Shown here: positions 17,745-19,362 of the stretch, in pieces
How the letters are laid out: every line of letters starts with the position of its first letter
Numbering within the stretch: the first letter of the stretch is position 1
Assembly: GCA_021836725.1 (NCBI GenBank)
Contig: JAKBHL010000006.1
Span: forward strand, 85,136 to 117,422
Direction: 5' to 3'
Length of the DNA stretch: 32,287 nucleotides
Source: a bacterium
GTDB lineage: Bacteria > Patescibacteriota > Minisyncoccia > Phycocordibacterales > Phycocordibacteraceae
The notes under the pieces: generated by a model
What the model saw: only the letters and a program-made list of their open reading frames with translations
What the model was told of the DNA's origin: nothing
Databases searched by the model: none
Program-made: the position numbers and the translations under genes

Positions 17745-18779
17745 TTATGCTTTCCGTACGATCAGAAACGGCGTCATTTCATCCGACTGCCCGGCGGGAT
17801 TGTCCCGGAATAATTTTCCTATGAAAGATTCGGAAATAGCGCGGGTGGATTTGCCGAGCGAAAAAGCCCCGCGATAATTCGCATCGATTATGACGACTTC
17901 GTGGCCGCCGACTTTTTCTTTGATCCGCCGCGCGGCGTCGCTCGGATCGTTTGGCGCGAGCTTCACGGCGTGCGCGTATTCAAGGATGAGGAAGGACATC
18001 GGGCAGTCGATGGATTTTGCGCGCGTTCCGCAAATCCTGTAAAACAGGCCGCGAATGCCAAGCGGGCGTGTGATGGCCGCGACGGCGGCGGCAAAGAGCA
18101 CGCGCGGGTATCCCGCCTCTTCTAGAAAAAGCTGCATGGCGAGGCTGGTGCCATGCCCGAAGCCGTGGAAATCGTCCGAACCGTAAGAATTGCCGACTTT
18201 GCGGGCGAGGAATCGCGCGAGGCCCGTCGGCTTGATTTCACTCATATCGACAACCCTGCCCTGGGTGATCGTGAGGGCTTTTTCGCTTATGAAAATGGCA
18301 TCTCCCGGCTTCAGGTATGGGCTGACATACTCTTCGATAAGCGGCAGGAGATCGGTGTCTTTCATCGTGATGAGACGGGTTCTCACCGGCAAACGCAGAT
18401 ACGATACGCCATCGACATCGATAGCGAGCTGTTTGCCCGGGTTTGCGATGAACTCTCCTGAGGCGGCGCGCGGCGCGGCTATGACGGATGCGTCGGCGAA
18501 AGAAACCTGCTCGCCGCGAAAAGCGGCAAACAATTTGCTGACCGTCTCGCGGATCGCGGAGGGATCCTCGGCGAGCTTTGCGCGCGAGCGCAAGAGTTCG
18601 GTCGCCTCCATGTAGAGGATACGGGCTTCGTCGGCGGAGGTCTGCGCAAAAACGGCTTCAATGGCGGCCGCGTCGTCGGATACCGCTTCTACCGCTATTG
18701 TGCCGTCTGCGCGCGGCGAGTAGAGGATCGTGAGGCCGGTCGATTCTTTCATCTGCGCATATGCCTGCGATTTTTCCAT
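17745..18779 (-). CDS. CofE-like (coenzyme F420-0:L-glutamate ligase family) protein with extra N-terminal region
   Basis: RTRLITMKDTDLLPLIEEYVSPYLKPGDAIFISEKALTITQGR and GIRGLFYRICGTRAKSIDCP...VVIIDANYRGAFSLG resemble F420_ligase-family proteins. Confidence 0.65.
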   Translation of the reverse strand: MEKSQAYAQMKESTGLTILYSPRADGTIAVEAVSDDAAAIEAVFAQTSADEARILYMEATELLRSRAKLAEDPSAIRETVSKLFAAFRGEQVSFADASVIAAPRAASGEFIANPGKQLAIDVDGVSYLRLPVRTRLITMKDTDLLPLIEEYVSPYLKPGDAIFISEKALTITQGRVVDMSEIKPTGLARFLARKVGNSYGSDDFHGFGHGTSLAMQLFLEEAGYPRVLFAAAVAAITRPLGIRGLFYRICGTRAKSIDCPMSFLILEYAHAVKLAPNDPSDAARRIKEKVGGHEVVIIDANYRGAFSLGKSTRAISESFIGKLFRDNPAGQSDEMTPFLIVRKA

Positions 18780-18871: not shown

Positions 18872-18909
18872 AAAACCCCTCTACGAAACATGTTTCGTAG
18901 AGGGGTTTT
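18872..18909 (-). terminator. 38-bp perfect palindrome, terminator-like
   Basis: AAAACCCCTCTACGAAACATGTTTCGTAGAGGGGTTTT is self-complementary, starting 5 nt after the stop of the 18914 gene. Confidence 0.9.
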
Positions 18910-18913
18910 TTAC

Positions 18914-19147
18914 CTACTCGTCGCAATTGAACGACTCTGGCTCCGGGAACGAGGGTTTCTTGAACAAAATCCCCGCCAGGAAGTTGAAACCCCAGGCCTG
19001 CCAGAAAGTAATTACTTTGATCCCGAAGATTCCCGGCATCAGCCAATTCCACAGGAAATAGGTTGGGATGGCAGTGGAAAATGCGTAAAGGCCAATTGCG
19101 AGAATGCTGATACCGATTCCCGTCGCCAGCTTTTCAAGCAAGTTCAT
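18914..19147 (-). CDS. Small membrane protein (77 aa)
   Basis: MNLLEKLATGIGISILAIGLYAFSTAIPTYFLWNWLMPGIFGIKVITFWQAWGFNFLAGILFKKPSFPEPESFNCDE; SD (TTAGGAGACACGAGATG), sigma70 promoter upstream, terminator downstream. Confidence 0.85.
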   Translation of the reverse strand: MNLLEKLATGIGISILAIGLYAFSTAIPTYFLWNWLMPGIFGIKVITFWQAWGFNFLAGILFKKPSFPEPESFNCDE

Positions 19148-19170
19148 CTCGTGTCTCCTAAGGTGCTATT

Positions 19171-19193
19171 TTCTACGGCACGTTACCGTAGAA
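19171..19193 (-). promoter_or_regulatory. 5'UTR hairpin of the 18914 gene
   Basis: TTCTACGG-TAACGTG-CCGTAGAA 8-bp perfect stem between promoter and SD. Confidence 0.6.
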
Positions 19194-19226
19194 GCCATGG
19201 AATTTTTGAATTTCGGTGGCGTTATT

Positions 19227-19255
19227 AATATAGCATATAAACACTTGAAAGTCAA
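19227..19255 (-). promoter_or_regulatory. sigma70-type promoter of the 18914 gene
   Basis: TTGACT-17 nt-TATATT on the minus strand. Confidence 0.75.
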
Positions 19256-19278
19256 GCAAAACAAAAAATCAGCTTTTG

Positions 19279-19362
19279 TGCGCCGGGAAGGATTCGAACC
19301 TTCGTAGGGCTATGCCCGACAGATTTACAGTCTGTTGCGATTGACCACTCCGCCACCGACGC
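19279..19362 (-). tRNA. tRNA-Tyr(GTA), type II with long variable arm, no encoded CCA
   Basis: GCGTCGG/CCGGCGC acceptor stem, ACAGA-CTGTAAA-TCTGT anticodon arm, GGGC-ATA-GCCC variable arm, GAAGGTTCGAATCCTTC T-arm. Confidence 0.95.

Follow-up and report, generated by a model that had tools for sequence, protein, structure and literature searches.

Phage morons are accessory genes of prophages that carry their own promoter and terminator (e.g., PMC7067206), while in archaeal viruses one highly conserved regulatory sequence precedes dissimilar anti-defence genes that are expressed early (PMC11065993). The unit discussed here lies in a 32,287-nucleotide (nt) stretch of a Patescibacteria genome of the Phycocordibacteraceae (contig JAKBHL010000006.1, assembly GCA_021836725.1; hereafter the window), in the 3' flank of a tRNA-Tyr gene, and it consists of a promoter, a structured leader with a Shine-Dalgarno (SD) sequence, a gene for a 77-aa membrane protein and a terminator. 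A first-pass annotation had called it a moron-like cassette. In our opinion it is highly probable that this unit is a horizontally acquired single-gene expression cassette and a member of a family with exchangeable cargo. The nearest conceptual precedent found is the archaeal-virus regulatory sequence; in both cases a conserved regulatory sequence stands ahead of unrelated small single genes. However, the archaeal examples are viral and have a TATA/B recognition element (BRE) promoter, whereas the cassettes reside in bacterial chromosomes and carry a structured 5' leader and an SD. Similarly to tycheposons and genomic islands, the cassettes are positioned behind tRNA 3' ends. Tycheposons are far larger and carry recombinases, whereas the cassettes span approximately 0.4-1 kb and hold one gene, with no integrase gene seen.

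The cassette of the window is encoded on the minus strand. Its promoter, of the extended sigma-70 type (19227-19255), consists of TTGACT (19255-19250), a 17-nt spacer and TATATT (19232-19227) with an extended -10 (TGC), and it is kept in L004, L006, L007, G025, G490 and others. Hairpin P1 (GCCA...UGGC; 19194-19220) was recognized by covariation where the mRNA is predicted to begin and bears the conserved loop GGAAUUCCAAAAA. It is followed by hairpin P2 (UUCUACGG-UAACGUG-CCGUAGAA; 19171-19193), supported by both folding and covariation, with the conserved loop UAA..GU. A conserved ACCUU and then the SD AGGAG are found at 19155-19165 (alignment A4), with AGGAG itself at 19159-19155, 7 nt upstream of the ATG, in a leader of approximately 75 nt. 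The first-pass annotation had read the promoter and the SD correctly, as well as the hairpin TTCTACGG/CCGTAGAA at 19193-19171, while the second, upstream hairpin (19220-19194), which is backed by covariation, had been overlooked. The gene for the 77-aa membrane protein (18914-19147) and the 38-bp perfect palindrome (18872-18909) were also present as it had described. The palindrome, the longest perfect one in the palindrome search, is flanked by T/A runs and folds as RNA at -30 kcal/mol (z = -6.5), in agreement with an intrinsic terminator usable on both strands.

Our analysis revealed that promoter, two-hairpin leader and SD form one conserved module. Promoter, leader and gene align across the relatives bearing the cassette, and among L004, L006 and L007 the terminator does so as well. 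The whole cassette stands behind tRNA-Lys in L004 and behind tRNA-Arg in L006. When four leaders were aligned with MAFFT without structural information, 95.8% of the cells in the two hairpins were paired and 5 of the 12 pairs were changed on both sides, three of them among the four pairs of P1. None of 500 shuffles reached this score, and slid controls were 33-52% paired. In an extended set the number of pairs changed on both sides rose to 10 of 12, a figure biased by the use of a fitted alignment. In the two loops and in the ACCUU ahead of the SD, conservation equals or exceeds that of the stems, a hint that a factor may bind here or that access to the SD is controlled. Folding predicts that ACCUU pairs with the SD in L004 but not in the window copy. 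No leader family was retrieved from Rfam at gathering or relaxed thresholds, and the palindrome gave only chance matches there. In the window and nine related loci, only tRNAs and no known structured leader RNA scored above gathering.

Ahead of the 77-aa gene the module is found in four lineages of Patescibacteria, while other lineages have it in front of different small genes. A first covariance model was built from the four leaders of the 77-aa-gene cassettes, the window copy being a training sequence (122 bits on the leader model), and was searched against 380 genomes of the phylum and those of the relatives. Apart from its training sequences it retrieved G100 (62 bits), two tandem copies in G281, and G450 and G475:C17 (39 bits each), the last being a second site in a Jorgensenbacteria genome. 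Each of these leaders lies directly upstream of an SD-bearing start codon, each time with a different open reading frame (ORF). Inspection of the sequences that follow tRNA-Tyr in relatives showed the module in the congener G025 as well (82 bits with the first model), in the same slot as in the window and ahead of another membrane protein. A second covariance model, run on 93 genomes of the same genus, added G490, G011, G057, G485 and G008 (106 to 42 bits), whose cargo again differs. Matches below 35 bits (L055-L059) were used as negatives only. The acquisition proposed in the first-pass annotation is well supported, but the gene is not a one-off; it belongs to a family with a common expression module and exchangeable cargo.

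Concerning the cargo, all-against-all BLASTP detected no meaningful similarity outside the 77-aa family. The products are mostly membrane proteins of 49-119 aa, those of L093 (G475:C28), L096 (G478), L097 (G100) and L134 (G025) having been read by eye, while G281, G450 and G008 carry soluble products. One product matched DUF2784 and one DUF7736, the others being without a family match. The small size and membrane nature of most products, together with the ability of ACCUU to pair with the SD in several members, could also be read as a toxin-control device, in which small hydrophobic type I-like toxins or immunity proteins would be held off at translation by ACCUU-SD pairing and the hairpins until a signal arrives. 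This is a functional reading that is compatible with acquisition by exchange. It appears improbable, given that no toxin or defence family was matched, that three members carry soluble cargo, that the window copy shows no predicted SD pairing and that an antisense RNA lacks support.

The first-pass annotation had also pointed to the adjacent tRNA. The tRNA-Tyr gene (anticodon GTA; 19278-19362, minus strand; ARAGORN and Rfam) is on the same strand as the cassette, and a 22-nt junction (19256-19277, delimited by blastn and sequence) separates its end from the -35 box; the leader model begins 19 nt after the tRNA. Junction and promoter are 80% identical to L004 over 55 nt (blastn), L004 having the full version, in which a hairpin precedes the promoter. 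Such placement is not confined to the window, since 11 of the 14 leader cassettes follow a tRNA on their own strand at a distance of 0-1188 nt. The tRNAs involved are Tyr (window, G025 and G057), Lys, Arg (G477, G475:C17, G100 and G281), Ile, Leu and Ser. For two of the remaining three cassettes, G478 and G011, the contig stops within 1.0 and 1.8 kb, and the third (G450) has no tRNA in 2.8 kb. Assuming a background of 4% per cassette, as estimated from about 45 tRNAs per 0.7 Mb, the binomial probability of the association is approximately 1e-13, while none of the five sub-threshold leader matches had a tRNA within 1.5 kb. The cassettes are therefore located preferentially just behind same-strand tRNA genes.

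The distribution of the 77-aa protein supports acquisition. It was absent from all 58 same-genus and all 40 same-order genomes searched, while relatives with 60-66% identity were found in Jorgensenbacteria, Azambacteria and other Patescibacteria. A sequence search of genome contigs also placed the protein in Falkowbacteria, with weaker relatives elsewhere. A profile search of the 380 genomes yielded two convincing distant relatives, L036 and L037 (E near 3e-7), one of them behind tRNA-Arg. Three further profile matches (L038-L040) were weak and chance-like and were dropped. Parcubacteria readily lose genes, and tRNA-Tyr follows the tyrosyl-tRNA synthetase (TyrRS) gene in many congeners, so that the locus is old; one could thus propose an ancestral, vertically inherited gene that most congeners have lost. 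However, not one of the 58 congeners carries it, the nearest relatives occupy unrelated loci in other lineages, and the same slot in congeners holds other genes, once with the same leader. Congeners also hold other short ORFs behind tRNA-Tyr that come with an SD or a terminator of their own. Vertical inheritance with loss is consequently hardly credible to us, although 77 aa are too few for a gene tree to settle inheritance.

A number of viral relatives of the protein were identified as well. It matched phrog_705 (unknown, 4e-11) and phrog_2169 (membrane protein, moron class, 9e-8) over residues 22-63, the LWNWLMP motif included, and homologues exist in cyanophages and other viruses. Since tRNA genes are classical attachment sites of phages, these relatives may suggest a true moron, that is, a prophage accessory gene integrated at tRNA-Tyr whose remaining prophage has decayed. 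The cassette does share with morons the single gene, the own promoter and terminator, the absence from close relatives, probably a trait-type gene, and a cargo family with phage members; to this extent the term chosen in the first-pass annotation is apt. Nevertheless, it lies outside any phage or prophage, with no phage genes nearby and tRNA synthetase genes as neighbours, and thus 'moron' applies by analogy only. Furthermore, promoter motif and end repeat (see below) were unmatched in 2.9 million viral contigs, and the checked phage member, the homologue in cyanophage Syn19, is embedded in an ordinary gene run beside td and has no cassette architecture. Unlike morons, the cassettes share a leader with swapped cargo and bring an SD leader into a genome without SD use. 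As the module is found driving unrelated genes next to many tRNAs, a moron in the strict sense is very unlikely, and we retain the exchangeable cassette as the preferred reading.

In nine aligned proteins the segment YFLWNWLMP is invariant. The ratio of non-synonymous to synonymous substitution rates (dN/dS) of pairs with the window copy, over a 42-codon core, was 0.09-0.19, indicating purifying selection. Helices are predicted at residues 3-40 and 48-61 with moderate confidence (AlphaFold; mean predicted local distance difference test, pLDDT, 76), and the protein probably resides in the inner membrane with two helices. No match was obtained in Pfam, NCBIfam or PADLOC. Judging from the phage relatives, one may guess at an accessory role, for example in protection or at the cell surface, as with traits that phages also carry, rather than a housekeeping one. 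Some copies deviate. That of L007 (1122-1359, on a Parcubacteria contig) has a frameshift near codon 16 and is either broken or misread, while the copies in L006 (4873-4960) and L004 (4963-4995) have longer N-termini owing to a duplication of their SD-start region at the 5' end.

The design of the cassette is foreign to the host as far as a coarse test can tell, start choice for the ORFs having been mechanical. To sample the genome (616 kb, 98.85% complete), 140 ORFs with a minimum length of 150 aa were taken from stretches of ten contigs and from the window. None of them had TTGA..-16/18-TA.. within 150 nt upstream, and SD-like 4-mers preceded 15, versus 13.2 expected from shuffles; SD use in host genes is at background level. 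This lends statistical support to the earlier description of the neighbours as SD-less. The flanks are AT-rich, as had been stated (GC 0.31 versus 0.57 in the window), while GC at third codon positions of the 77-aa gene (0.69) is similar to that of its neighbours and its coding part is thus no composition outlier. Neither vertical syntenic conservation of the cassette nor a genome-wide promoter/SD design, the two observations named beforehand as speaking against acquisition, was found. An exception in the host is one other tRNA-abutting gene with the same design (L041, G000:C1, 10084-11004, minus strand). There, behind tRNA-Leu, TTGACT begins at the tRNA end and is followed by a hairpin and GAGGAG. 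These precede an ORF of 306 aa that has a membrane segment at its N-terminus and looks SPFH/stomatin-like by eye. It was also observed that the host 16S rRNA gene (L154, G000:C4:7487-9209) contains an insertion near its 3' end with a LAGLIDADG-like ORF; 16S introns carrying such genes are known in these bacteria (PMC8172020).

From its sequence, the module would let the cargo be transcribed and translated by itself at any landing site, and the autonomous expression proposed earlier is consistent with promoter, leader and gene being kept together in relatives. In such a scheme, the SD would provide ribosome recruitment in a genome whose own genes skip it, the 5' hairpins may stabilise the message or bind a regulator, and the palindrome could insulate the cassette on both sides. 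Such cassettes would pass from species to species and settle in the 3' flanks of tRNA genes, apparently as units of approximately 0.8-1 kb with a conserved end repeat in several of the relatives, while the window copy may have lost, or never had, the unit ends.

Regarding these units, a conserved sequence ending in TTCGGACTANNNNNNGWATWYTGCA, often followed by CCA, was found downstream of the cassette in L004, G475:C17, G450, G281, G011 and G057, and upstream in L007. It occurs in 11 of the 380 genomes with 1-2 copies each, and five of the new sites have a same-strand tRNA 0.7-1.0 kb upstream. The units start directly behind the tRNA, contain one ORF and are in tandem at one site. In G341 and G292 the repeat is inverted at both ends, about 0.8-0.9 kb apart, around one ORF, a structure that resembles a small non-autonomous transposon of the miniature inverted-repeat transposable element (MITE) type, which would carry the gene and be moved by a transposase acting on terminal inverted repeats. 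This reading concerns the carrier and is compatible with the exchangeable cassette. It is rather unlikely, however, as other units have the repeat at one side only and a different left end directly behind the tRNA, no transposase was found, and the copies of the window, G025, G485 and G008 are without ends. As a separate observation, three end-repeat units (L083, L085 and L091) have a different left end and no leader module, and their ORFs start with MNQKGFANI..., N-termini that look pilin-like by eye.

Since the units carry no recombinase gene, movement in trans or by homologous recombination is to be expected. One unit contains a LAGLIDADG ORF (PF14528, 2e-8). In five (L156-L159 and L161; G151, G298, G467, G399 and G208) of the six Patescibacteria genomes with a member of this ORF family, the ORF starts directly behind a tRNA-Leu gene, no more than about 20 nt from its 3' end, and in G151 the cassette end repeat comes after it. 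This makes a homing endonuclease a candidate mover and no more. A broader proposal, which we hold only tentatively and regard as possible rather than probable, is that Patescibacteria possess a cassette-exchange system, in which stand-alone modules with interchangeable small, mostly membrane cargo would be placed behind tRNA genes across orders by an enzyme acting in trans, LAGLIDADG homing endonucleases being one candidate, with a function like that of integrons without an integron.

Comparison with integron cassettes shows that both are single-gene mobile units, and that the units of the relatives form short arrays behind one anchor, the tRNA, with a common end sequence. In contrast to integron cassettes, each cassette here has its own promoter, leader and terminator, and the anchor is a tRNA instead of attI. 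Neither an integrase nor attC was identified, with no model search aimed at either, and on visual inspection the end sequence bears no obvious likeness to attC.

Several observations weigh against an acquired, exchangeable cassette. The leader models were built on few sequences, and matches below 45 bits are individually weak. The end repeat has no copy in the genome of the window, and the only direct repeat, TGTAAATCT, shared by the tRNA and the distal flank, is 9 bp long, too short to be informative, and was not used. Insertion thus rests on comparison and not on scars. In addition, no recombinase or helper was recognised. Finally, the 16S 3'-end anti-SD was not located in the metagenome-assembled genome (MAG) of the host, nor was a CCTCC tail found in the next 1.5 kb at the interrupted 16S gene (L154), so SD use by the host is only presumptive.

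A literature search with partial coverage gave no description of cassettes in tRNA flanks, suggesting that the exchangeable family is so far undescribed. Patescibacteria live on other cells and have few known mobile elements or regulatory RNAs. The shared leader offers a sequence handle for overlooked accessory genes of small proteins, in the way that archaeal anti-defence genes were uncovered through their common promoter (PMC11065993). Moreover, the cassettes are a testable case of SD-dependent expression in organisms whose own genes hardly use SD, and the promoter-leader may serve as a portable part for genetic tools in Patescibacteria.

The genes neighbouring the cassette in the window code for an F420-ligase-like protein, TyrRS, tryptophanyl-tRNA synthetase (TrpRS) and an ABC transporter. 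The F420-ligase-like protein (17745-18779) has approximately 100 additional N-terminal residues compared to most congeners, with matches beginning near residue 108, and its good match to a Pfam model is confined to residues 132-196.
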